64,000 nucleotides of DNA from Owenia fusiformis (lineage: Eukaryota; Annelida; Polychaeta; Sabellida; Oweniidae): the NCBI GenBank assembly GCA_903813345.2, contig CAIIXF020000009.1, positions 4,956,030 through 5,020,029 on the forward strand, given 5' to 3'. Position 1 is the stretch's first letter. The number at the start of each line of letters is the position of its first letter. Positions 15,101 to 36,100 of this stretch are shown here, one piece after another. The translations under genes were made by a program, and so were the position numbers. The notes beneath the pieces were generated by a model that was not told where the DNA came from, searched no databases, and saw only the letters and a program-made list of their open reading frames with translations.

Positions 15101-18100
15101 TTTTTTTCTAATACCAACGTAAAACTTTTTCAAAAAATTATCTGCATCTGCCACGGCAGTAAGTTCACTCAATGGAGTCAAATTACTCTCCTGGGTGAAG
15201 TCTACTAAAAGCTTTGTACAAAGTTTTAGATTTTTCTTCGTATTTTGACTGTCTTTACTCTCTAAGAGACTAATACTATCCTCATCTTCAACATTTTTGA
15301 AACGGCTAGTGCTAGCGGCGGCCATTTTATCGTCTGATAATGACGTCATTTTAGTGGAATGCTGGGAATATTATTCACCGGCAATGCATTGCGCGGTGTA
15401 CAGTTAAAATTATTCACCACTCGTTGACCAATCAAAATCGAGTATTTCAACTGAGGTACTAACAATGTAAATTGTTGCTACATTGAGCTGTTTCAATTTG
15501 AGATTAAAAAACTTATTGAGCAAAGGCAATTAACCATTGAATGTAAAGCGCACATATAAAGATACTACATGTTTTGGTTGCCACTTTTACCTAGTATGAA
15601 TTCTATAATGTACGTTAAGAGAATATTTATGCATAAATGTTTTGGAACAAACATCACATGTGAAGTTCTTTTCTCCATTTTGAATTCTATAATGTTTGTT
15701 ATGATTTGACTTTCTTGTAAATGTTTTAGAACAAGCATCACATTTAAAGTTCGTTTCTCCAGTTTGAATTCTACAATGTTTGTTAAGATTCAACTTTATT
15801 GGAAATGTTTTTAGAACAAACATCTCATTTAAAGTTCTTTTCTCCAGTATGAATTCTATGATGTACCTTAAGACTGAACTTATGTGTAAATATTTTAGAA
15901 CAAACATCACATTTGAAATTCTTTTCTCCAGTATGAATTCTATAATGTCTGTTAAGATTTGACTTTATTGAAAATGTTTTTGAACAAACATCACATTTGA
16001 AATTCTTTTCTCCAGTATGAATTCTATAATGATTGTTAAGATTTGACTTTATTGAAAATGTTTTGGAACAAACATCACATTTGAAATTCTTTTCTCCAGT
16101 ATGAATTCTAAAATGTCTGTTAAGATCTGACTTTGTTGAAAATGCTTTAGAACAAACTTCACATTTGAAATTCTTTTCTCCAGTATGAAGTCTATGATGT
16201 ACCTCAAGACTGAACTTATGTGTAAATATTTTAGAACAAACATCACATTTGAAATTCTTTTCTCCAGTATGAATTATTATGTCACCACCAAAAGTGGTGA
16301 CATATTGTTATGGTCTCCGTTTTTTTTGCGACGGCGTCCGGCGGTTGGTGGTTGGCGGTTGGCGTCCGGCGGTTGGCGTCTGTAACAATTTCTTACAACT
16401 TCCTATAACTTAACAAATACTGTTTAGACTGACTTCAATTTTTTTCTAAATCATCTACATGTTCTCAGAAGTTCAAATCTGACTTTAGATTTGACATTTG
16501 ACCTTCGATGACCTTCTCAAGGTCAAAAAGGTCTTTTTTCAACTTGCTTCACATTGACTAATTTTTTTTTCAAAATCATCTACATGTTCTCAGAAATTCA
16601 AATCTGACTTAAGATTTGAGATTTGACCTTCAAATCTGACTTTAGATTTGACATTTGACCTTCAATGACCTTCTCAAGGTCAAAAAAGGTCAAAAAGGTC
16701 TACAATTTCTTACAACTTCCTATAACTTAACAAATACTGTTTAGACTGACTTCAATTTTTTTCTAAATCATCTACATGTTCTCAGAAGTTCAAATCTGAC
16801 TTTAGATTTGACATTTGACCTTCGATGACCTTCTCAAGGTCAAAAAGGTCTTTTTTCAACTTGCTTCACATTGACTAATTTTTTTTTCAAAATCATCTAC
16901 ATGTTCTCAGAAATTCAAATCTGACTTAAGATTTGAGATTTGACCTTCAAATCTGACTTTAGATTTGACATTTGACCTTCAATGACCTTCTCAAGGTCAA
17001 AAAAGGTCAAAAAGGTCTGTTTTCAACTTGCTTCAAATTGACTAAATTTTTTTTTCAAAATCATCTACGTGTTCTCAGAAATTCAAATCTAACTTAAGAT
17101 TTGACTTAGGATTTGACCTTCAATGACCTTCTCAAGGTCAAAAAAGGTCAAAAAGGTCTGTTTTCAACTTGCTTCGAATTGACTAAAAATTTTTTTCAAA
17201 ATCATCTACGTGTTCTCAGAAATTCAAATCTGACTTTAGATTTGACTTAAGATTTGACATTTGACCTTCAATGACCTTCTCAAAGTCAAAAAAGGTCAAA
17301 AAGGTCTTTTTTCAACTTGCTTCAAATTGACTAAATTTTTTTTTCAAAATCATCTACATGTTCTCAGAAATTCAAATCTGACGTTAGATTTGACATTTGA
17401 CCTTCAATGACCTTCTCAATGTCAAAAAAGGTCAAAAAGGTCTGTTTTCAACTTGCTTCGAATTGACTAAATTTTTTTTTTAAAATTATCTACGTGTTCT
17501 CAGAAATTCAAATCTGACTTAAGATTTGACCTTCAATGACCTTCTCAAGGTCAAAAAAGGTCAAAAAGGTCTGTTTTCAACGTGCTTCAAATTGACTAAA
17601 AAAAATTTTCAAAATCATCTACGTGTTCTCAGAAATTCAAATCTGACTTTAGATTTGACTTAAGATTTGACATTTGACCTTCAATGACCTTCTCAAAGTC
17701 AAAAAAGGTCAAAAAGGTCTTTTTTCAACTTGCTTCAAATTGACTAAATTTTTTTTTCAAAATCATCTACATGTTCTCAGAAATTCAAATCTGACTTTAG
17801 ATTTGACATTTGACCTTCAATGACCTTCTCAATGTCAAAAAAGGTCAAAAAGGTATTTTTTCATCTTGCTTCAAATTGACTAAAATTTTTTTCAAAATCA
17901 TCTACATGTTCTCAGAAATTCAAATATGACTTTAGATTTGACATTTGACCTTCAATGACCTTCTCAAGGTCAAAAAAGGTCATAAAGGTCTTTTTTCAAC
18001 TTGCTTCGAATTGACTAATTTTTTTTTCAAAATCATCTACATGTTCTCAGAAATTCAAATCTGACTTTAGATTTGACATTTGACCTTTAATGACCTTCTC

Positions 18101-21100
18101 AAGGTCAAAAAGGTCTGTTTTCAACTTGCTTCAAATTGACTAAAAAAAATTTCAAAATCATTTACGTGTTCTCAGAAATTCAAATCTGACTTTAGATTTG
18201 ACTTAAAATTTGACATTTGACCTTCAATGACCTTCTCAAAGTCAAAAAAGGTCAAAAAGGTATTTTTTCAACTTGCTTCAAATTGACTAAATTTTTTTTT
18301 CAAAATCATCTACATGTTCTCAGAAATTCAAATCTGACTTTAGATTTGACATTTGACCTTCAATGACCTTCTCAATGTCAAAAAAGGTCAAAAAGGTATT
18401 TTTTCATCTTGCTTCAAATTGACTAAATTTTTTTTCAAAATCATCTAGATGTTCTCAGAAATTCAAATATGACTTAAGATTTGACATTTGACCTTCAATG
18501 ACCTTCTCAAGGTCAAAAAAGGTCAAAAAGGTCTTTTTTCAACTTGCTTCAAATTGACTAATTTTTTTTTCAAAATCATCTACATGTTCTCAGAAATTCA
18601 AATCTGACTTTAGATTTGACATTTGACCTTTAATGACCTTCTCAAGGTCAAAAAAGGTCAAAAAGGTCTGTTTTCAACTTGCTTCAAATTGACCAAATTT
18701 TTTTTTTTTCAAAATCATCTACATCTTTTCAGAAGTTCAAATTTGACTTTACAAGTTCTCAGAAATTCAAATCTGACTTAAGTTTGAACTCATAATATTG
18801 TGAGCAACTAGGTGGTGACATTTTGTCATGTTAATGCCTTGTATAATGTCTGTTAAGATTTGACTTTATTGAAAATGTTTTTGAACAAACATCACATTTG
18901 AAATTCTTTTCTCCAGTATGAATTCTATAATGTCTGTTAAGATTAGACTTTTGTGTAAATGTTTTAGAACAAACATCACATTTAAAGTTCTTTTCTCTAG
19001 CATGAATTCTATAATGTTTGGTAAGATTTGACTTTCTTGAAAATGTTTTAGAACAAACATTACATTTAAAAGTCTTTTCTCCAGTATGAATTTTATAATG
19101 TTCCACTAGTTTAGACTTATATTTGCACACTATATGGCATATATCACAAATATGTTTCCCTTGGTGGCCATTTACCAGTCTCTGAAAACCACTTGTAAAA
19201 ATGTTGTCACTAGCCGTATCATTATTCATCAAAGAAGCATAACTGTTTGTCATACTTTTGGCAGTTTTTATCCGATTAAGATTAATTATCACACCATCAA
19301 CATCATTTATCACACCATCAGTGTTATTTATCATAGTTTTACCACCAGTTTTACATCACATCATCAGCATCTTTTACTATATCAACATCATTCATGACCT
19401 TGCTTCCAAAGTCCATTATGTTTTCCATAGTAAAGGTAAATTCAGCATTAGTTCCCTGGTCTCGTGGTTACCTCAATATATTAAAAAGATACTATTCCTG
19501 AATAAAGTATATGAATTTATTCAATGATGATGAACCTTCTACCAATCTCAGACAGTTCTTGATGTATCCTTTATGTATGGTATGGAATTCATACAAGACT
19601 CTTATGTCACACTATCATTTGGTTTATTGTCCAAAGAATCATTCTCTTTCAGTCCAAAATAGCGTGTGTATGTCTAAAATCATCAAATATTAACACTAGC
19701 ACCTCTTAAAAATGTACCACTTTTTATTATGTCTTACTCTGTTTTCAGCAGTATCGTTATAATATACATGTATAGTATCCTAGTATTAAGCATGTTGTTT
19801 TGCTTATCACTGTCTTAAATTGTATGTAAATTAACTGTAACTAGGAGGCCCATGGCCTTAAAAGTTTTGAAATAAATATATATGTATCCTAGTACTCCTG
19901 GTGTTATTTGAAGCGCTTGTTTGGTTCTTGTATTATTTTTTGCAAAATGCTATGGCTTCTCCCACACACATAACCATGCGTATATGAGCTCTGCTATACA
20001 GATAAGACATTTGAACAGCTGTTATGGTTACTCTAGTTAGGCTATATTTACTCTACTTTAAAGGCCAGTTTTAAAGTGCTAGCAACTCCCATTAAAATAT
20101 CAGGTTACGTCCACACTTTAACATGGTACAGATAGACAGGATTAGTTCATTTCTTCATCCTAGGTTTAATTAACAGCATTGCTTAATACTGTAATAAATT
20201 GCCGGGCCCTCTCTCTGAACAAATACTTGGTAGCGTGGCTAGGGCCGGGAATATTACGACACTAAATTTTGACTTGGTCTTTAATTGAGTTAATCAAATT
20301 ATTTGCTTGGTCATTAAGGAAAATTTGGAATAATATAATACTGGAAGGTGCTGACACCTTTAAATGACAACTGGACTGAATAGTGCAAACTGTGGGAGGG
20401 GGTGATTGCAATGTATAATGATATAAATGGAATCTTCAACGCAACTTGCACCTAAGTATTCTCAACAGATCGCAATACTGAGCTTGATATGACCCCTTAA
20501 ATATATGAAGATGAAACAATCTGTTGAAAATAAACTTAAATCAAATTGACCACTTTATGCAAAACAAAAGACAAAGAAATTAAGATTATATAATTTTAAT
20601 AATGATATAAATCTGAGTATATAGAATATATGTATAAAATGGTATAATTACAAAGGAATATTTACATAATCAGAGTCACGAAGTTCGAACGAATAAGAAA
20701 CTGTTATCTCTCAACAGGAACGATCTTATTATTGAACTTACTCTTGATTAAGAATCTCACCAATCTCACTAACTATCTCATTCCCAACATTTAACTCCAC
20801 TTACATGACAAAAGTTCTCTGCACTACATATGTGCATGACCTGAACTAATCAACACTTCAATGACCATGAGCACCTTAAAATAATGGAACACTCAAACAA
20901 CCTTATCTAGAGATGTTTTTCTACAGCTATGTCAGGCAAAATCTTAGATATAGTTCTTCAGATATGTCAGGCAAAATCTCGATATAGCTGTACAGCTATG
21001 TCAGGCAAAATCTTAAGATATAGTTGTACAGCTATTTCAGGCAAAATCTTAGATATAGTTCTATAGCTATGTCAGGCAAAATCTCAGATATAGTTCTACA

Positions 21101-24100
21101 GCTATTTCAGGCAAAATCTTAGATATAGTTCTATAGCTATGTCAGGCAAAATCTCAGATATAGTTCTACAGCTCTGTCAGGCAAAATTTTAGATATAGTT
21201 CTACAGCTACAGCTACACTTTTGGCCAGTCCAAGTGTTCTCTTTAGACAGGTTTTACTGTATCCAAGTCTAATAGAAAGTTGTAATCTCTCACAATGTAC
21301 TCCATGCAATACTATGTAAATTGTTGCCATATTGAGCTGTTTCAATTTGAGAAATCAACTTATTGAGCAAAGGCAATTAACCATTGAATGTAAAGGGCAT
21401 ATACAAAGTTAATACATGTTTTGGTTGCCACTTTTACCTGGTATGAATTCTATAATGTACATTAAGAGAATATTTATGCATAAATGTTTTAGAACAAACA
21501 TCAGATGTATAGTTCTTTTCTCCCTTTTGAATTCTATAATTTTTGTTATGATTCGACTTCCTTGTAAATGTTTTAGAACTAGCATCACATTTAAAGTTCT
21601 TTTCTCAAGTATGAATTCTACAATGTTTGTTAAATTCCACTTTATTGGAAATGTTTTAGAACAAATATCTCATTTACAGTTATTTTCTCCAGTATAAATT
21701 CTATAATGTTTGTTAAGATATGACTTTCTTGTAAATGTTTTGGAGCAAACATCACATTTGAAATTCTTTCCTCCAGTATGGATCCCATAATGTTCATTGA
21801 GAACTGACTTTATTGAAAATGCTTTCGAACAAACATCACACTTAAAGTTCTTTTCTCCAGTATGAATTCTATGATGTAAGTAAAGAGTATACTTTTGTGC
21901 AAATGCTTTCGAACAAACATCACATTTAAAGTTCTTTTCTCCAGTATGAATTTTATAATGTTTGTTAAGACCTGACTTACTTGTAAATGTTTTTGAACAA
22001 ATATCACATTTGAAATTCTTTTCTCCAGTATGAATTCTATAATGTGTGTTAAGATATGACTTTGTTGTAAAAGTTTTGGAACAAACATCACATTTGGAAT
22101 TCTTTTCTCCAGTATGAATTCTATAATGTCTGTTAAGATTTGACTTTATTGAAAATGTTTTAGAACAAACATCACATTTGAAATTTTTTTCTCCAGTATG
22201 AATTTTATAATGTCTGTCAAGACATGGCTTATTTGTAAATGTTTTTGAACAAACATCACATTTGAAATTCTTTTCTCCAGTATGAATTCTATAATGTTTG
22301 TTGAGATTTGACTTTATCGAAAAAGTTTTGGAACAAACATCACATTTGAAATTCTTTTCTCCAGTATGAATTCGAAAATGTCTGTTAAGATCTGACCTTG
22401 TTGAAAATGCTTTAGAACAAACTTCACATTTGAAATTCTTTTCTCCAGTATGAATTCTATGATGTATGTTAAGAGTAGACTTTTGTGCAAACATTTTAGA
22501 ACAAACATCACATTTAAAGTTCTTTTCTCTAGTATGAATTATATAATGTTTGTTAAGATTTGACTTTATTGAACATGTTTTAGAACAAATATCGCATTTA
22601 AAATTCTTTTCTCCAGTATGAATTCTATGATGTATGTTAAGAGTAGACTTTTGTGCAAAAGTTTTAGAACAAACATCACATTTAAAGTTCTTTTCTCTAG
22701 TATGAATTCTATAATGTTTGTTAAGATTTGACTTTATTGAACATGTTTTAGAACAAACATCACATTTAAAATTCTTTTCTCCAGTATGAATGCTTGTAAA
22801 TGTTTTACTAGAAGTAGCATCATTCATCAAAGAAGCAGAACTATTTGTTAAACTTTTGGCAGTTTTTATCCCATCAAGATTAATTATCACACCATCAACA
22901 TCATTTATCACACCATCAACATCATTGATCACACCATCAACACCATTTATCACACCATCAGCGTTATTTATCATAGTTTTACCATAAGTTATCACATCAT
23001 CAGCATCTTTTAGTATATCACCATCATTGCTACCAAAGTCCATTATGTTTTCCATAGTAAAGGTGAATTCAGCATTAGTTCCCTGGTCTTGTGTTTACCT
23101 CAATATATTAAATAGATACTATTCCTGAATAAAGTATATGAATTTATTCAATGATGGTGAATCTTCTACCAATCTCAGATAGTTCTTGATGTATCCTTTA
23201 TGTATGGTATGGAATTCATACAAGACTCTTATGTCACACTATCATTTGGTTTCTTGTCCAAAGAATCATTCTCTTTCAGTCCAAAATAGCATGTGTATGT
23301 CTAAAATCATCAAATATTAACACTAGCACCTCATAAAAATGTACCACTTTTTATTATGTCTTCCTCTGTTTTCAGCAGTATCGTTATAATATACATGTAT
23401 AGTATCCTAGTATTAAGCAAGTTTTGCTTATCATTGTCTTAAATTGTATGTAGATTAACTGTAACTAGGAGGCCTGTGGCCTTAAAAGTTTTGAAATAAA
23501 TATATATGTATCTTAGTACTCCTGGTGTTATTTGAAGCACTTGTTTGGTCCTTGTATTATTTGCATAATGCTATGGCTTCTCCCACACACTTAACTATGC
23601 AATTATAAGTTTATCTGCTACACAGATAAGACATTTGAACAGCTGTTATGGTTACTCTAGTTACTATATTTACTCTTTAAGATAAGCAGGTTGTATCAAG
23701 TCTAGTTTGTTTATTTGGCATTTATGCACCTTATACAGCAATATGTGTTTGATAGCTTATTGGATAAGCTAATGTTCCTGGCCAAAAAGAAAACATAATT
23801 TTCACCCAGATTTCAGTCTACCAATTCATGTTATGCCAAACTAGTCCATCTAATCTTCCTTATCAGTCTCAATACAATTTTTATCAGAAATATAAAGAAC
23901 AAAAATGTACCACCATGACTGTACTAGACATGACTTTATCGTATGGTCTGTAAAATGAAGCCCTCTGATTGGTCAGTTCTTGTGCTGTACCAATCTGTAC
24001 TGCTACTGAGATTGTCCCTGTTGATCATCTCCGTCGAAATACAGAAAATATTGGTACGGAGGGGACAATCTGAGTAGCAATGACAGAGGATCACACAATA

Positions 24101-27100
24101 AAAACGTTATTGAATGATTTGAAGTGCAATACAGGATATATTCTGTCTCAATATTCTGTATTGGCACTCGACTTCATCTCGTACTAGTATGGAATTTCTC
24201 GAGCAGAATATATCCTGTATTGCACTTCAAATTATACAATAACTTATATTCTAGAACATGTGCAGGGGCTTTGCCTCCTTTCAGTCAGGAGGGGTGCGAT
24301 TGCCAAAAATATTTCAGTTTTTAGTCAGGGGCATTTTTAGATTGTCGTATAGACAAGCCAAAAAATTAAAATTTATCTTGAATTTTACAAAAATTGATGC
24401 AACTTTTTATTTGTAATGGGGGGGGGGGGTGGCTACGCCTATGATGTATCTATATGGAATTGTTGCTTTGAATATTATTCTGATTGCAACAAAGGAACTT
24501 GCAAATATAATTTTATAGCTGAATTTTATACTATCTTACATACAATTTTCAATGATCTGAACAATGTTTATATATACAGTATTGTTTTCCACTTTTATTT
24601 AGGCTATGGCAGAAAAGGAACATCAAAACAGCATTTAATCCAAGAGAGAGATCGAAAATATGTAATCACTCAAATACTTGTCAGTGGATTTGGATCAAGT
24701 TTTTTTATCCTGATGCCAAATAATCAATGAATAACTATGAATAATAATAATATATCACTTATATGAATCAAAGAGTACAAGTACAATAATGAATATTTAT
24801 TTTATTATAATTTACATGTAATATTACAATTATAAGCAAAACATGCACTGATAAATCTCTTTAGACTGTTACAGTTGTATGAATAAAGTATTGGTGGTGT
24901 TGATGGTCTATCATCCATCATTTTTTGCATCGAATTACTGCCACCCTTTGGCATTTAAGTGGAATATGGGGCATGCATTCTAAAACATTTTTCTCATTCC
25001 CACTGCAGTCAAACATAATGAAAGATGGGTTGGCTTCACTCAGAAGAGAAAGGTCCTCTATAAACTGAACTCTTTTGTAAGGTTGTGAGTTTTGTCGACA
25101 GATTACTTTTGCAGTTGGTTGGTTACTTATGCGCCATCGATCCATATTATCTCCACAGATGTATCTACGTTTCAGTTTTCCTGGCATGTAGAATGTCTCC
25201 TCATATTTTATTTTGTTAATTCGTATTTTTATAGTTTCTATCCTCAGATCACAGAATACAATAATTCTCTTAAATCCATCGCAGTAGACATCAACTCCAT
25301 GGTTGTAGCTACATTTTGATAGATTTTCCTCATCACCGTTACATTTAACATGACTCATAACTATATCATCATTTGCGTTGTTTTCTGTATCAAATATGCC
25401 ATATTTATCTTCTCCAATGACATAATCACCTACAAGAATTAGGTTACCATTAAAGATTAAGAATGCATTGCATTTACAAAAAAGGATTTTTTCTTCAATT
25501 ATTTCTCCTTACTTGTTGAGTCATGTGGAGTGTATCCCCTGCATGCAACTTTTGTTTCATTGATTCCCCATCCATGTGCACAGACTGCACCACGTTTACT
25601 GTTAAAATGGATCTCCACCTGACCATAACCTTTTGATACCAGTTCTGGTCTTGCGGTAAAGTTGGTTGGTAGACTCTCTAAAAGTAGAGGATCAATTCTT
25701 TAGCTTTTGTTTTTCATATTCTTGTGTATCTCCCATTCACCTGGTGCACAGCCAACAGCAAAACAAAACTGAACTGTTCCCAGGATTTGTAGAACATTTA
25801 TCTTACAATGCTACAGCAGGGCTGTCAACTTGGGACCATCTAACATAATTTTGGACACCTAAAAAAAACGATTTTTAAAAATATCAACAAGATGTGTGAT
25901 TTGCGTGATATTTGATCATACACGCTAAATTTATGCATGATTTCTATTTTTCCAGCAAATGCGTAACAATCACGCCTAATGCGTGAGGGTTGACAGGGCA
26001 GCTACAGATATGTCAGGCAAAATCTTAGATAAAGTTCTACAGCTATGTCAAGCAAAATCTAGAGATATTTTTCTACAGCTATGTCAGGCAAAATGTTAGA
26101 TATAGTTCCAACAGCTATGTCAGGCAAAATCTTAGATAAAGTTCTACAGCTATGTCAGACAAAATGTTGGATATAGTTCTACACTTATGTCAGGCAAAAT
26201 CTTAGATATAGTTCTACATCTATGTCAGGCAAAATTTTAGATATAGTTCTACAGCTATGTCAGACAAAATGTTGGATATAGTTCTACAGTTATGTCAGGC
26301 AAAATCTTAGATATAGTTCTACAGCTCTGTCAGACAAAATGTTGGATATAGATCTACAGTTATGTCAGGCAAAATCTTAGATATAGTTCTACATCTATGT
26401 CAGGCAAAATTTTAGATATAGTTCTACAGTTATGTCAGACATATGCACAAGTTAAATACATTACCATGGTTGTGCCAGAATAAAACAATTAGTATAATAT
26501 GAACTTAGGACACCTTTTTAATGCTAAAACTAAAATAAAAGATTAACAACCTCTTTTTACCTTAAAATGTTTACCTGGCATATTACTGTGACAAAAGACA
26601 GCTGGATAGTCATAGTCGTACTTATGCCATCGATAACATGAACTGCTTGTATCAATGATGCAGTCCATTCCTCCATCAAACCTCTCCTCACATCTCAATT
26701 TATGGGTAATATAGTTATCAAATGAGTAATTGGATCTGAAGTGATACACAGAGGTTGTTGTGTATTCAGGTGGGAAACCCAACAGTCTGCATATAACCCT
26801 TGCTTCTTGGATTCTCCATTGCCCATTGCATACCCATAGTCTGCATCTACACTCTTTTGTTTTAGGTGATATATCATAGAGGCTCATTTCTGGAATACCT
26901 GTAAATAATGTTGTCGTGTCAAATACTTGCTTTACCTAATGCTGTAAAATACATCTTCGAATTTCAAGGTGGTTGAAGGTGGGGTACTAATAACTGAAAC
27001 CTTGTGAAGCAAGATGGTCAAATAAGAATTATTGTGAAATTATAATATGAACTGTTCCTCAGTATAATGTACCTTTGTATTGTCCCTCATTTTCTAGACT

Positions 27101-30100
27101 TATATTCAAGTGCCTCATATCACAAGTTAAAATAATGGTATCACATCGATGATGCCAATATGGTATTTTAGCTCTTTCATCCCATGAGTCGTATGTGCAA
27201 TCTTTAAGATGACCTTCATCCCCCATGCATTGCAGATCAGTCTCTACGTTTATACCCCCTGGATGAAATTGTAACTTCTTTAGAATGAAACTTGATTCAT
27301 CATATCCCAACATTCTACAGACGACTCTCGTGACATTGTAGTGCCATACGTTTTCTCGATACCTATAAGTACACACAGGAAGCCAACGACTTTCATTTTG
27401 AGCTCGAGCAAGTAGTCGTCCCTGATGCCCACCTTCTAGACGAAATTGGGAATGTTCAAGAATAGCTACAATGAATTAATGGTCGGTTTAAACCAATTTT
27501 GAATTACACATGCCAATTAATCTGTTTGCAGAAATCTGTTTTTGAAAGTTTTTTCTTAGTCTGGTAATAATTTTCATCAACAGGCAACTCTTTTACTCAT
27601 TTGTTCACAAAGGTTAGGAAAATCAAACTTACGATTTGGCCCTTCTGGACATTGAATTTCTACAAGTTTACGAAGGTATTGTCCTTTATATACATCATGT
27701 CTCCAATTAGACGATGAAAATACCTGGCATTGTTCAAGTTCTGTCTCTGTTCCTTCACAGGAAAACGCCTTTGGAAATGCTCCACCATAATGTGTGAAAT
27801 AAATTTCCTGTTTTACCTCAGTAAAACGTAATCTTGTATATCTTGGATCACCTCCTTTCCTTTGGCATACCAATTTTGCCATATGTTTGTCTGCCATAGA
27901 TACTGGTTGCCATTTGTTTTCAATTTTAACCTCAAAAACACCAACCTTCAGTGTGCTGTTTAAAGTATTGAATCTAATTGGAATTTTGTGACATGTTAAA
28001 CTGAGGAGTTTGCCTGGACAAAGTGATGGATACATTTTTCTCACTGGCTCTTTATGTTGACAATCCTTTATGTTGCTTTCATTTCCAAAGCATTGGACCT
28101 GATGAAACCAAACTGGTGTCTTTCTTGACCATCCATGATCTTTTGATGTTTGGATAATCTGTCCATCCTTGCTATCTTCTCCCAATTGTCTACATAACAC
28201 TTTGCCAATGTGTTGAAGATTTGACGAGGAAAGGCAAATATAACCCCATATTCCTTCATGTTGAACTTGTATTCCATTCGCTGCATCAAGCTTTATCTCA
28301 TCATGTGATTCATGCTTGTGGCATATTGCAATTGCATCATGTCTTTTCTAAAGCCAATGTTAACATACAATAATACATCATATGGGAAAAATTGGCAATA
28401 TTCTATAAAGCTGTGTATATATTATACATACCAGGCCCGTAAGACACTTTTCTCCAAGGGGGGTGCGGTTTTTAGCAATTACTAAAGAGAATATAAAATT
28501 TTTTTGCCGCGTAAATCAAATCGCGTAAGACAGAGGGGGGGGGGGTCAGTTACTCCCTATATTGGTTTGGAATTAACAAAATGCAACTTACAAACGTTCC
28601 AATTGTTTTGTGGGGGGGGGGTGTGAGGACTGGTCCACTCCCCCTAGAAAATTTTACTGTTTTGAGATGCTATTTGGTGCTTTCTGGGCACTTTCAAAGT
28701 GTAAGTTTCTAAGTAGTACGCCACCACCATGGGAATAAGAGTTGGGTGAATAAAAAAACGAGCATTCAGGGGTGTCTGGGGGTTCTCCCCCAGGAAAATT
28801 TTGAAATTTGGTTGTATTTGGAGCGAATTTGCAACCATCTGGTACGCCTGTGCGTTATGAGTCAATAAGAAAAATGTGAATTTTTTTCAAATTCTTTTGG
28901 GGGGTGTCAAAGAGGATGAGAGGGTGAAGTGGGGTGGGGTGCCAGTAGGGGAGCAAGGGGTTGTCTCCCAGAAACATTTACCATATCAAGGTGCTATTTG
29001 ATGATGTCTGGTCACTTAAAAAATGTCTGAGACAATACATGAAATTCAGAATATTTTCTTTTGTTTTGTGGGGGATGTAAGGGGTGGCTAACTCTCCTAG
29101 AAAATTTTACAATTTAAAGATGATATTTGGTGCTTCTGGGCACTTTTAAAGTGTATTAGTCAATAAAAACATTGAAAAACAATCACAATTTTTTTCAAAT
29201 TTTGGGGGTGTCAAAGGGGGGGGGGGGTGGAGGGGTGCCAGAGGGGGAGCAAGTGTTTGTCCCCCATATCAAAATTTACAATATCAAGGTGCTATTCGAT
29301 GAAGTTTGGGCACTTTAAATGTGTCTGTGCCTTCACAATTTTACGACGCTATTTGGTGCTTTCTGGGCACTTTCAAAGTGTATGAGTCAATTAAAGAATT
29401 TGAGAAAATCACAATTTTTTTTTTGGGGGGGGTCAAGGGGGGGGGCGCCAGGGGGGGAGGGGGTTATGCAAGTGCAAGATGCAAGAGGGGGAGCAAGTCC
29501 CCCAGAAACACTAACTACAGTGTATATTAAGGAGCTATTTGATGATGTCTGGGCACTTTAAAAGTGTCTGAGACAAAACACTAAAATAAATTTAGAACTT
29601 TTCCATTGTTTTGTGGGGGGGGGGGGGGGGGTGTGAGGGGTGGCCAATACCCCTAGAAAATTTTACAATTTTAAGATGCTTTTTTGTGCTTTCTGGGTAC
29701 TTTCAAAGTGTATGAGTCAATGAAAAAAAATTACAAAAAAAATATTTTTTTTCAAAATTTTTTTTCAAATTTATTTTGGGGGGTGACAAAGGGGGGTGCG
29801 GTCGCACCCATCGCACCCCCCCCATCTGACGGCCCTGCATACAATGCAAATACACTGAGATCTCATGAATCTCAATAGATAAATATACATGTACATAAAT
29901 CAAAAGAAACCAAAATGCTGTATCTAATAGTATACATATTTTGTGTAAATAAATACTTATTCATTCAGTATTGGAATTCACCGAATTATACCTGTAGATG
30001 ACTACAACATTTTTACAATATTTCCATTGGACATAACACAGTATTTTGTAAATACTATACCTCACATTCTTCAATTTCTCCCCATGGAGTATGTGTGCAT

Positions 30101-33100
30101 TGTCCTAAAAGTGTCTCATTCTATTGGACATAACACAGTATTTTGTAAATACTATACCTCGCATTCTTCAATTTCTCCCCATGGAGTATGTGTGCATTGT
30201 CCTAAAAGTGTCTCATTCTATTGGACATAACACAGTATTTTGTAAATACTATACCTCGCATTCTTCAATTTCTCCCCATTGGGTACGTGTGCATTGTCCT
30301 AAAAGTGTCTCATTCTATTTGACATAACACAGTATTTTGTAAATACTATACCTCACATTCTTTAGTTCTTCCCCATGGAGTATGTGTGCATTGTCCTAAA
30401 ATGTTTCATTCAATTGGACATAACACAGTATTTTGTAAATACTATACCTCACATTCTTTAGTTCTTCCCCATGGAGTATGTGTGCATTGTCCTAAAGTGT
30501 CTCATTCAATTGGACATAACACAGTATTTTGTAAATACTATACCTCACATTCTTTAGTTCTTCCCCATGGAGTATGTGTGCATTGTCCTAAAGTGTCTCA
30601 TTCAATTGGACATAACACAGTATTTTGTAAATACTATCCCTCACATTCTTCAATTTCTCCCCATGGAGTATGTGTGCATTGTCCTAAAATGTTTCATTAT
30701 ATTGGACATAACACAGTATTTTGTAAATACTATACCTCACATTCTTCAATTTCTCCCCATGGGGTATGTGTGCATTGTCCTAGATATGTCTCATTCTATT
30801 GGACATAACACAGTATTTTGTAAATACTATACCTCACATTCTTCAATTTCTCCCCATGGGGTATGTGTGCATTGTCCTAGATATGTCTCATTCTATTGGA
30901 CATAACCCAGTATTTTGTTAATACTATACCTCACATTCTTCAATTCCTCCCCATGGAGTATGTGTGCATTGTCCTAAAATGTCTCATTCTATTGGACATA
31001 ACACAGTATTTTGTAAATACATTACCTCACATTCTTCAATTCCTCCCCATGGAGTATGTGTGCATTGTCCTAAAAGTGTCTCATTCTATTGGACATAACA
31101 CAGTATTTTGTAAATACTATACCTCACATTCTTCAATTTCTCCCCATGGAGTATGTGTGCATTGTCCTAAAATGTTTCATTATATTGGACATAACACAGT
31201 ATTTTGTAAAAACTATACCTCACATTCTTCAATTTCTCCCCATGGAGTATGTGTGCATTGTCCTAAAATGTTTCATTCTATTGGACATAACATAGTATTT
31301 TGTAAATACTATACCTCACATTCTTCAATTTCTCCCCATGGAGTATGTGTGCATTGTCCTAAAAATGCCTCATTCTATTGGACATAAGACAGTATTTTGT
31401 AAATACTATACCTCACATTCTTCAATTTCTCCCCATGGAGTATGTGTGCCTTGTCCTAAAATGTTTCATTCAATTGGACATAACATAGTATTTTGTAAAT
31501 ACTATACCTCACATTCTTCAATTGCTCCCCATGGAGTATGTGTACATTGTCCTAAAATGTTTCATTCAATTGGACATAACACAGTATTTTGTAAATACTA
31601 TACCTCACATTCTTCAATTTCCCCCATGGAGTATGTGTGCATTGTCCTAAAAGTGTCTCATTCTATTGGACATAACACAGTATTTTGTAAATACTATACC
31701 TCACATTCTTCAATTTCTCCCCATGGAGTATGTGTGCATTGTCCTAAAATGTTTCATTACATTGGACATAACATAGTATTTTGTAAATACTATACCTCAC
31801 ATTCTTCAATTCCTCCCCATGGAGTATGTGTGCATTGTCCTAAAATGTCTCATTCTGTTGGACATAACACAGTATTTTGTAAATACTATACCTCACATTC
31901 TTCAATTTCTCCCTATGGAGTATGTGTGCATTGTCCTAAAATGTTTCATTATATTGGACATAACACAGTATTTTGTAAAAACTATACCTCACATTCTTCA
32001 ATTCCTCCCCATGGAGTATGTGTGCATTGTCCTAAAATGTCTCATTCTGTTGGACATAACACAGTATTTTGTAAATACTATACCTCACATTCTTCGATTT
32101 CTCCCCATGGAGTATGTGTGCATTGTCCTAAAAGTGTCTCATTCCATTTGACATAACACAGTATTTTGTAAATACTATACCTCACATTCTTCAATTTCTC
32201 CCCATGGAGTATGTGTGCATTGTCCTAAAATGTTTCATTCTATTGGACATAACACAGTATTCTGTAAATACTATACCTCACATTCTTCAATTTCTCCCTA
32301 TGGAGTATGTGTGCATTGTCCTAAAATGTCTCATTCTATTTGACATAACACAGTATTTTGTAAAAACTATACCTCACATTCTTCAATTCCTCCCCATGGA
32401 GTATGTGTGCATTGTCCTAAAAGTGTCTCATTCCATTTGACATAACACAGTATTTTGTAAATACTATACCTCACATTCTTCAATTTCTCCCCATGGAGTA
32501 TGTGTGCATTGTCCTAAAAGTGTCTCATTCCATTGGACATAACACAGTATTTTGTAAAAACTATACCTCACATTCTTCAATTTCCCCCATGGAGTATGTG
32601 TGCATTGTCCTAAAAGTGTCTCATTCTATTGGACATAACACAGTATTTTGTAAATACTATACCTCACATTCTTCAATTTCTCCCCATGGAGTATGTGTGC
32701 ATTGTCCTAAAAGTGTCTCATTCCATTTGACATAACACAGTATTTTGTAAATACTATACCTCACATTCTTCAATTTCTCCCCATGGAGTATGTGTGCATT
32801 GTCCTAAAAGTGTCTCATTCCATTGGACATAACACAGTATTTTGTAAAAACTATACCTCACATTCTTCAATTCCTCCCCATGGAGTATGTGTGCATTGTC
32901 CTAGATATGTCTCATTTCCAGTACAGTTGAAGTTAGCAATACCATAATCTCTTTTTCCTTGTCCCCATTCTTTGCTATTCGTTCTATCCTCAATACTTTC
33001 TGTATGGAAATAATAATGGAAAATGTCTGTCAAATACAAGTGATTGGAAGTAGGCAGTCTCTTTTGAATTATCAATTATTTTGTAATCAAAGTCCAAAAT

Positions 33101-36100
33101 GTTTCCTAGTAATGTTTCACACCTGATGCATATATAGGAATTTCTGTTTTACTCGCATCATAACCAAGATGTCGGCATACTACTCTGGCGTTTTCTATGG
33201 TCCAGCCTTTGTTGCAAATCCTAGCCCAAGGAACCTTTCTTCCAAGGTGACGGTAATATATTTCTACTCTTCCTTTAGCTTTGTCAACAAAGTCTCCAGC
33301 CAATTTCACATCATAGTTATCTTGTTTTGGAGGTGACTTGTCTTAAAACATTGTCATTTCAGTCATACTTTTTTCATTGAATCAAATTAATGTCTAAATA
33401 TAACTTTGTTAATTGGTGATATTACATGTACATGTAAGCCTCTTATATTTAATGTCCCTCCATCTTAATTTTGTGCATATTGCTTTCTGCTGTGAAACAG
33501 CAAAGATAATATTTTCACTTACCTATTGATGCAGATATCCCCCAAATGAGATAACTAAGAAGTACCACTTGACTGTAGATGCTTTTAACAATTTGAACCA
33601 TCTTCACCTTTCAACACTACCTGATGCTATGCATTCATATCTGTGGATAAAATATTATGTGGTTATAACTCATGATAGATCAGCATGTTTTGGATATAAA
33701 GCGTGATATGTTGAACATATTTGAAATAAAATGTGACATTTATGTGAAAATGTTGTGGTTCTTTCTTTGGTATTGATACAGCAGTACACTCTCATTTCAA
33801 CAATTATTGTGAATGCTTGCTCAAATGATGCATTAGACAGTAAAGTATTCTTTATCATTTTATTTCAATTAAGTATTATTATACCATTAAATGAATCGCT
33901 AGTTTTAGAATATATTTCATATAAATATTGCTACTAGCAACAATTTACCTATGACACCATAACTCTGGTAAATCATATCTTCTTTGGTGTATCAAAGTTT
34001 GGAAGCTAACTGACCTTCATTGCTGTCTTCCTCTTAGAAATGCATCATTGGATATTTATCTCCAGTTGGAACCAGATCAAGACACTAACATTGCTGTTTT
34101 GGTAGGTCATTGAAACGTTACTCAATTTTTAGAAATGGCGTCTGCTCCTTAACAAATGCATTATGGGATATTAATTTCCAGTTGGAACCAGATGTAGACA
34201 CTGATAATGCTGTTTTGGTAGGTCATCGGAATGTATCTTCATTTTTAGAAACTGACGTCTGCTCCTTAACAAATGCATTATGGGATATTCATTTCCAGTT
34301 GGAACCACATCTAGACACTGATACTGCTGTTTGGTCATCGGAATGCATCTTCATTATTAGAAACTGATGTCTGCTTTTTAACAAATGCATTATGGGATAT
34401 TCATTTCCAGTTGGAACCACATCTAGACACTGATACTGCTGTTTTTGTAGGTCATTGGAATGTTACCTCATTTTTAGAAACTGATGTCTGCTTTTTAACA
34501 AATGCATTATGGGATATTCATTTCCAGTTGGAACCAGATCTAGACACTGATACTGCTGTTTTGGTAGGGCATGGGAATGTAGCCTTGGATATTGCCAGGA
34601 TATTGCTCACACCTGTTGATATATTAAAGGTAAGATCTCCATGCATGACATTCATTTTACGGGGTTCTACATTAATAAACAGACAGATTTCATCTAACTT
34701 TCATGCTATTTCCATGAAGACCACTCTATATTTTTAATTATTTTCTATTTTATATTATAAGCAATTTTGAATAACAGTAAAACCTTTGTAAGTGGAACAC
34801 ATTGGAACCTCTAAAGAATTCCACTAATACATTTACATAACATTAATTTAAGATCATTTGGTCACTGGACTTTGAAGTGGCCCACTAAGAATGTGTTCCA
34901 CTTACAGAGGTGTTCCAATTAACAGGTTTTATATATTTATTTTAAATAACCTAAATTCAAACTACAAATACAATACCTTTACATACATACTTTTGGGGAA
35001 ATCTCTTATCCTATTTTAAAAATTTATTTCCTGCGTTGATGTACTCTTGGATTTGTCACAGAAAACAGATATAACCCAGCATGCGTTAGAGGCATTGTCA
35101 CGCAGCCGTGTCAGACGTGTGTATACAGTTGGACGGCGAGGCCCTCTACAGGTGGCATTCACTATCAAAGAATTAAGAGAAATGACAAAGATTCCTGACT
35201 GTACTCCTGTGATAAACAAAGAAGACATCACACCATTGGAAAGCATAATAAAAGGTACATTTTCACTTTTGGGTCATTCAATAAGTTTATAAGGAGTTGA
35301 GAAATGAAATGGGAATAATTTTTTCAAGTGGGACTCTGATATAATTTCATGATATTTTTAATCTCATTCTAACCCTTAGATGAAGGTTAATTTTTTTACC
35401 ATGTATCAATGAGGTTAGATTTCTAACCCTTGTGTGATGCACAGGGGTTAGATATCTAACCCTTGTGCCCTTGTTCAGGTTAAGGCAGGTTAAATATCTA
35501 ACCCTTGTGCGTCGCACAGGGGTTAGATATCTAACCCTTATGTGTAACACACAGGGGTTAGATATCTAAAACTGAAGTTAATTTCTACATATAAACACTG
35601 AATGTTATTCCATTTTAGGGAATACAGGCTCAAACTGAAGCTAATTTCTTCATGTAAACACTCAATGTTATTCCATTTTAGGGAATACAGGCTCAAACTG
35701 AAGTTAATTTCTACATATAAACACTGAATGTTATTCCATTTTAGGGAATACAGTCTCAAACTAGCTAATTTCTTCATGTAAACACTGAATGTTATTCCAT
35801 TTTAGGGAATACAGGCTCAAACTGTAGCTAATTTCTACATAATGGAAAATGCACTCATTGGCTCACACAGTGAGCCTATGGGATTGACCAGGCGTCCGTC
35901 CGTCCGTCCGTCCGTTGGTCCGTCCGTCCGTCCGTCTGTCCGTCCGTCCATCCGTCCGTCAACATTGGCCGCACAAATTAAAACTGCTATTCGGATTGAG
36001 TCATATCCACATTCATTTTATGCATATCCATAATGCCTATTTGACCTATCATCGCCATTTCCCAAGTTCGCCCGGTTTCCGAGAAATTGCGGATTTTGAC

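Follow-up and report, generated by a model that had tools for sequence, protein, structure and literature searches.

A tandem array of exon-boundary copies in an intron of an SRCR-type gene of Owenia fusiformis, probably a drifting minisatellite

Tandem repeats that touch splice sites are known from several systems. In recent human gene duplicates internal tandem repeats lie on exon-intron boundaries, where they are read as expansions of long repeat units, and some of them generate new introns or alternative splicing (PMC2812944). The gain of introns by tandem duplication has been discussed as well, including the work of Hellsten (2011) and a 24-bp multi-copy case from fission yeast (PMC4974935). 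Within introns, a variable number tandem repeat (VNTR) in human ABCA7 alters splicing (PMC5954066), and in C. elegans a minisatellite is associated with multiple splicing decisions (PMC4039745). Here we describe a stretch of 64 kb from the annelid Owenia fusiformis (the window), in which the third intron of a scavenger-receptor-like gene, of SRCR type, holds 29 tandem copies of the boundary between exon 3 and that same intron. No comparable SRCR intron array appeared in the titles or abstract openings of the best-ranked open-licence literature.

An array built from the end of exon 3

The window is part of an assembly of 498 Mb in 525 contigs. Its SRCR-type gene lies on the minus strand, and the joined exons 2-4 match PF00530 with an E-value of 9.2e-38 and 129 bits, passing the Pfam cut-off of 26.1 bits that was used for the SRCR call. 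The layout is given in Table 1. An earlier annotation of the same DNA, referred to here as the original prediction, had placed the exon 3 donor at exon end 32857 and the exon 4 acceptor at exon start 28347, and the spliced alignment agrees with both. The intron between them measures 4509 bp. Its counterparts in 10 further SRCR genes have 214-420 bp, so that this locus is a clear outlier for intron 3 length.

Table 1. Exons, introns and arrays of the SRCR-type gene, with the array of paralog L006; positions are those of the window unless another locus is named.
Feature	Position	Strand	Basis or remark
Exon 2	33123..33342	-	3' end from spliced alignment; 5' end approximate
Intron 2, 123 bp	33000..33122	-	Spliced alignment; paralog L006 carries its own array in the same intron
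Exon 3, 143 nt, phase 1 to 0	32857..32999	-	Spliced alignment; last ~59 nt are the array source
Intron 3, 4509 bp	28348..32856	-	Spliced alignment
29-unit tandem array, spacing 95-97 bp	30022..32856	-	TRF, unit list and unit alignment; inside intron 3
Distal array edge, intron CCAATGGAAATATTG	30016..30030	-	7-bp repeat TGGAAAT common with exon 3 (TACTGGAAATGAGAC)
Exon 4, second SRCR domain region onward	27633..28347	-	3' end approximate, taken from GTAAGT donor
L006 array, 18 units, mostly 143 bp	L006:1711-4382 (G000:C4:25208710-25211381)		Intron 2, directly ahead of exon 3

Tandem Repeats Finder (TRF) delimits the repeat at 30022-32916, with about 96 bp in 30.0 copies and 95% matches. The first of these copies is exon 3 itself and the remaining 29 are intronic. 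Each unit joins the last part of exon 3, with the donor that follows it, to the beginning of intron 3, and a typical one reads, in order, ATGAGACA(C)TTTTAG, an exon-like piece of 44 nt, GTATAG and about 32 nt of intron. The exon-like piece is 43 nt long in two units and has the full 44 nt in the other 27. GTATAG is likewise present in 27 of the 29, the exceptions being one GTAATG and one GGATAG, while an AG stands ahead of the piece in every unit, as TTTTAG (25), CTTTAG (2) or the exon 3 form TATCTAG (2). Among themselves the units differ by a mean of 5.6 differences. The original prediction thus stands in its main lines, namely about 30 units of about 97 bp following SRCR exon 3, an origin from the boundary of exon 3 and intron 3 (borne out by the unit alignment and by a 7-bp repeat at both edges), and in most units a TTTTAG unlike the exon ahead of a 44-nt piece that closes on the original GTATAG donor. 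Its division of the unit into some 59 nt of exon and 38 nt of intron is about right, with an exact split that the 7-bp junction repeat makes ambiguous.

In exon 3 the stretch that matches the acceptor-like tract encodes Y-L-G of the SRCR domain. Since the exons of three paralogs retain a similar coding state at this stretch, we take the T-rich tract to be derived in the array. A 201-bp array query against the assembly returned 15 matches, all at the window locus, and a 371-bp query spanning exon 2 through the beginning of exon 3 a single one. DNA searches of this type pass over very frequent words and score the best candidates only, so that uniqueness of the locus is not proved by them.

How could an exon boundary come to be multiplied in this way? 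TGGAAAT occurs in exon 3, within TACTGGAAATGAGAC, and again in the intron past the array, within CCAATGGAAATATTG; the array units correspond to the stretch that these two occurrences bracket. The junction from unit to unit reads CCAATGGAATGAGAC, that is CCAATGG(A)AATGAG, the units being without one A. A slip between the TGGAAAT repeats would have duplicated the end of exon 3 together with its donor, and unequal exchange may later have multiplied and homogenised the duplicated segment. Exact blocks do recur inside the array, one of 193 bp at a distance of 3 units and one of 153 bp at a distance of 10 units, and these internal duplications hint at variation in copy number. A small clustered change from TATCTAG to CTTTTAG, followed by the loss of one base, would then have arisen in one unit and spread along the array. 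Most units could have come by an acceptor-like tract without selection for splicing, because the tract spread with its unit, and exon 3 may still be spliced from its own donor because that donor is the nearest to its acceptor. Splicing from the donor one unit further downstream would run into GTA TAG, a stop at once, so that leaky splicing would mostly lose the transcript.

Minisatellites are arrays of near-identical units of roughly 10-100 bp placed head to tail, and the window array, at 96 bp by 30.0 copies with 95% match, fits this definition. We put at about three in four the probability that it is a neutral, drifting minisatellite that expanded through replication slippage or unequal exchange; it has more the look of repeat DNA multiplied by copying errors than of a splicing switch. 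Such a minisatellite explains the array best because the genome itself is rich in repeats, as set out in the following section.

Two further repetitive elements lie in or beside the same gene. A tandem repeat of 117 bp in 4.7 copies lies directly upstream of the gene start (34038-34581, TRF), and G-run-rich modules, for example GGGGGTGTCAAAGGGGG, were seen by eye to recur several times over about 1.3 kb in the remainder of intron 3 (28500-29830).

A sister array and the repeat background

A protein search of the genome led to three paralogs, L005, L006 and L007, at C4:25.19-25.22 Mb. The middle one, L006, has an array of its own. Its units combine the end of the intron, including the acceptor, with some 93-98 nt from exon 3 and with a spacer similar to the end of intron 2 in L007. 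This array takes in the opposite edge of exon 3 and, its breakpoints being different, is an independent event. In the stretches fetched for L005 and L007 an array of such kind was not found.

Two more clade queries revealed no similar array in other SRCR genes (among the best 125 of 181 and the best 119 of 205 candidates), and TRF of 12 further SRCR loci gave no array of such kind, with other arrays in three of the twelve; distant genes could be missed in this search. Two loci, L032 (G000:C7:35816300-35820000) and L033 (G000:C7:37460500-37463500), appear to be ordinary multi-SRCR genes with duplicated exons, their open stretches of about 310-360 nt being tandemly duplicated at about 395 bp; in L033 gaps of about 80 nt, which were not aligned as introns, separate the SRCR open stretches.

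Tandem arrays as such are common in this genome. Counting those with a unit of at least 20 bp and at least 2.9 copies in TRF, 12 arbitrary stretches (96 kb) contain 18 array rows covering 11,866 bp, four of which are one 145-bp satellite; 97.7 kb of 15 SRCR loci contain five rows and the 64-kb window 17. With a seed footprint of 1.2%, defined by the unit lengths of arrays with a period of at least 40, 42 SRCR splice boundaries should carry about 0.5 arrays, whereas two are observed (p=0.09), a value that overstates the true surprise because the window array prompted the search. Are exon-like units, then, a common accident of arrays? This was rejected, as a loose filter for acceptor plus donor was passed by only 3 of 24 rows with a unit of at least 60 bp, namely the window array, the L006 array and one array of 366 bp. 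A strict version of the filter was passed by none of the 24, the window array included.

Several other repeats deserve mention. Within the stretch L022 (G000:C2:10000001-10008000) a 145-bp satellite takes up most of the first 4.6 kb. In the window, one 35-bp minisatellite with the core ATGTCAGGCAAAATCTTAGA forms two arrays about 5 kb apart (20919-21209 and 26002-26438, TRF), and this core had no match in the other fetched loci. Arrays of an 84-bp repeat at 15593-16275, 18842-19101 and 21441-22791 may encode C2H2 zinc-finger-like sequence, judging by their period and by an open reading frame of 461 aa at 21670-23055; between zinc-finger-like arrays lies a nested tandem repeat whose periods are 135, 157, 270, 289 and 413 bp (16472-18751).

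Splice sites, selection and rival explanations

Splice sites were scored with small matrices from the genome itself, built on introns at two conserved positions in 11 SRCR genes. These comprise 21 introns, eight from spliced alignment and 13 kept, at the two conserved positions, from 57 introns predicted in 12 loci; many of the predictions were implausible in distant genes, and 44 were dropped before scoring. Held-out matrices, which leave out the tested sites, rest on 20 donors and 17 acceptors, and 12 arbitrary 8-kb stretches of the assembly served as background for random GTs and AGs.

By these measures the array donors are true copies of the real one and the array acceptors range from poor to passable. 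The exon 3 donor scores 7.6 held out, a value reached by 1.7% of random GTs. The array acceptors have a median of 3.8 (range 1.0-7.1), which 8.1% of random AGs reach, compared with a median of 6.5 for real acceptors (17, left-one-out), although the matrix is small and 6 of the 21 real acceptors score lower than the array median. Selection on the exon-like piece of the window array was considered and rejected: variable columns are equally frequent in the exon-like part (13 of 44) and the intron-derived part (10 of 32; Fisher p=1.0), and no clear codon bias emerges, the distinct codon changes in the 27 units whose piece has 44 nt being 4 synonymous, 8 non-synonymous and 1 stop out of a possible 22:94:10 (p=0.18 for the synonymous share). 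The array thus carries no internal sign that would suggest selection for exon use. Consecutive units are moreover separated by 53 nt, whereas the smallest of the 21 measured introns has 123 nt, which counts against their use as pseudo-exons.

The L006 array behaves differently. Its acceptors reach a median of 9.6 under the held-out matrix, matched by 0.6% of random AGs, and 15 of the 18 score above the true acceptor of that gene (5.7), with two equal and one below. In the exon-derived part 9 of the distinct changes are synonymous, where 3.4 would be expected (permutation p=0.001), 4 are non-synonymous and 1 is a stop; with gaps counted, 11 of 93 exon-derived columns vary as against 21 of 50 in the spacer (p=1e-4). 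At the level of columns, codon positions 1 and 2 compared with position 3 give p=0.17, positions 1 and 2 compared with the spacer p=0.019, and position 3 compared with the spacer p=0.60. The synonymous excess was noticed post hoc; it is suggestive and we leave it unexplained. Gene conversion was considered as its cause and found unsupported, with none of 18 units carrying two states specific to the L006 exon and none carrying the L005/L007 end; four of the 14 variant states are common to paralog exons.

Several observations weigh against a minisatellite that merely drifts. One exon has been arrayed twice within a single clade of four genes, at opposite edges; the tract ahead of the exon-like piece is unlike that of the exon in 27 of 29 window units; 22 of the 29 window acceptors score above the internal CTAG of exon 3 (1.5) and 10 reach at least the score of the true exon 4 acceptor (5.15); and the synonymous excess in L006 is unexpected for a purely neutral array. 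For the tract and for the acceptor scores, selection could be an explanation as well.

What else could the window array be? It might act on splicing by diversion, its 29 extra donors and acceptor-like sites sending part of the transcripts into frame-shifted or truncated RNA that decays, with the length of the array tuning the output. We think this unlikely, yet there is something to be said for it. In 27 units the donor is letter-identical to the predicted working one, and the ten acceptors that match or beat that of exon 4 would be available to such a process. The frame speaks for it too: the original prediction that inclusion of 44 nt shifts the frame holds where a unit is added to exon 3, with an early stop in all 29 cases, but not where a unit takes the place of exon 3 (phase 1 to 0), a swap that leaves the frame open in 25 of 29. 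Extension of exon 3 by one unit yields ...ECEV and an immediate stop, a result that counts for the minisatellite as well. A precedent exists in human ABCA7, where the length of an intronic VNTR correlates with exon skipping (PMC5954066). On the other side stand the overall weakness of the acceptors, exon-like columns that are not conserved above intron columns, and the folding of the donors. The hairpin at the donor is stronger in the commoner unit type, at -5.7 kcal/mol compared with -1.8 for the exon 3 type (four sequences folded, two per type), which four of the 29 units have in common with exon 3; the modelled accessibility of positions +1 to +6 in local folding is nevertheless unchanged, 0.078 for the real donor falling within the span seen for array donors (0.007-0.42). 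For this reason, sequestration of the array donors in hairpins was rejected too.

More ambitious readings involve both genes. Two sister SRCR genes could each have turned one edge of exon 3 into a bank of splice sites, with donors after the exon in the window gene and strong acceptors before it in L006, most pieces in phase to stand in for exon 3, the L006 bank under codon-like constraint, and together they would form a length-tunable splicing device for truncated, altered or silenced forms of an immune-type receptor; we regard this as very unlikely. A slimmer chance still is given to a bank of mutually exclusive ends of exon 3, in which one unit, a 44-nt piece in the window or a 104-nt piece in L006, would replace exon 3 in frame. 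The open replacement frame in the window would suit it, as would the strong L006 acceptors, the L006 unit length to GTAATG of 104 nt, of the same phase, in 15 of 18 units, and the synonymous excess there. However, the units would give near-identical peptides, leaving little to choose among, and the product would lose part of the SRCR domain including some cysteines; the L006 donor, GTAATG after AAT, is weak (12% of random GTs are as good), 3 of the 18 L006 units would shift the frame and 2 contain a stop, and the column-level codon-position test gives p=0.17. Least probable of all is an error of assembly in the array or its copy number. Long, near-identical arrays can be mis-assembled, but these units differ from one another, the window is gap-free with 0 N, and on the exon side the array adjoins exon 3 of its own gene within an open and conserved gene structure. 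A neutral minisatellite remains the reading we prefer, and what deserves a second look is the pairing of two sister genes that each array a different edge of exon 3.

Significance and relation to known systems

If the window array is neutral and nothing more, it offers a clean natural experiment, with 27 letter-identical copies of a predicted working donor in one intron. The paralog intron adds 18 acceptors, 15 of them above the real one, and together with the window donors these could reveal how the spliceosome chooses among copies. Were the array in use, its length would give an immune-type receptor a fast-mutating control.

In mutually exclusive exon arrays of the Dscam type, the units encode different versions of one protein segment. 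The Owenia arrays resemble them in placing tandem exon-like units of one common phase beside a constitutive exon. They differ in that their units, being almost identical, do not encode different versions of a segment, and in that the arrays of the window and of L006 each copy one of the two splice sites of exon 3.

Closer parallels come from repeats that are not exon banks. With the ABCA7 VNTR the window array has in common that it is an intronic tandem array, for which ABCA7 provides a precedent of array length altering splicing; there the effect on splicing was measured, while the window units are copies of a host exon boundary and are known from sequence alone (PMC5954066). As in intron gain by tandem duplication, the duplicated AG and GT give new potential splice sites, most window units running from AG through an exon-like piece to GT. 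Here, in contrast, the duplicated segment is an exon end plus an intron start, the 53-nt interval is shorter than all measured introns, and the arrangement of AG and GT is all that is seen (PMC4974935). The boundary repeats of human gene duplicates average 30 bp by 4 copies, are variably exon or intron and have RNA support, unlike the 29 copies of about 97 bp described here, which are intronic and read from the DNA only; in both, however, a minisatellite sits on an exon-intron boundary among recent paralogs (PMC2812944).

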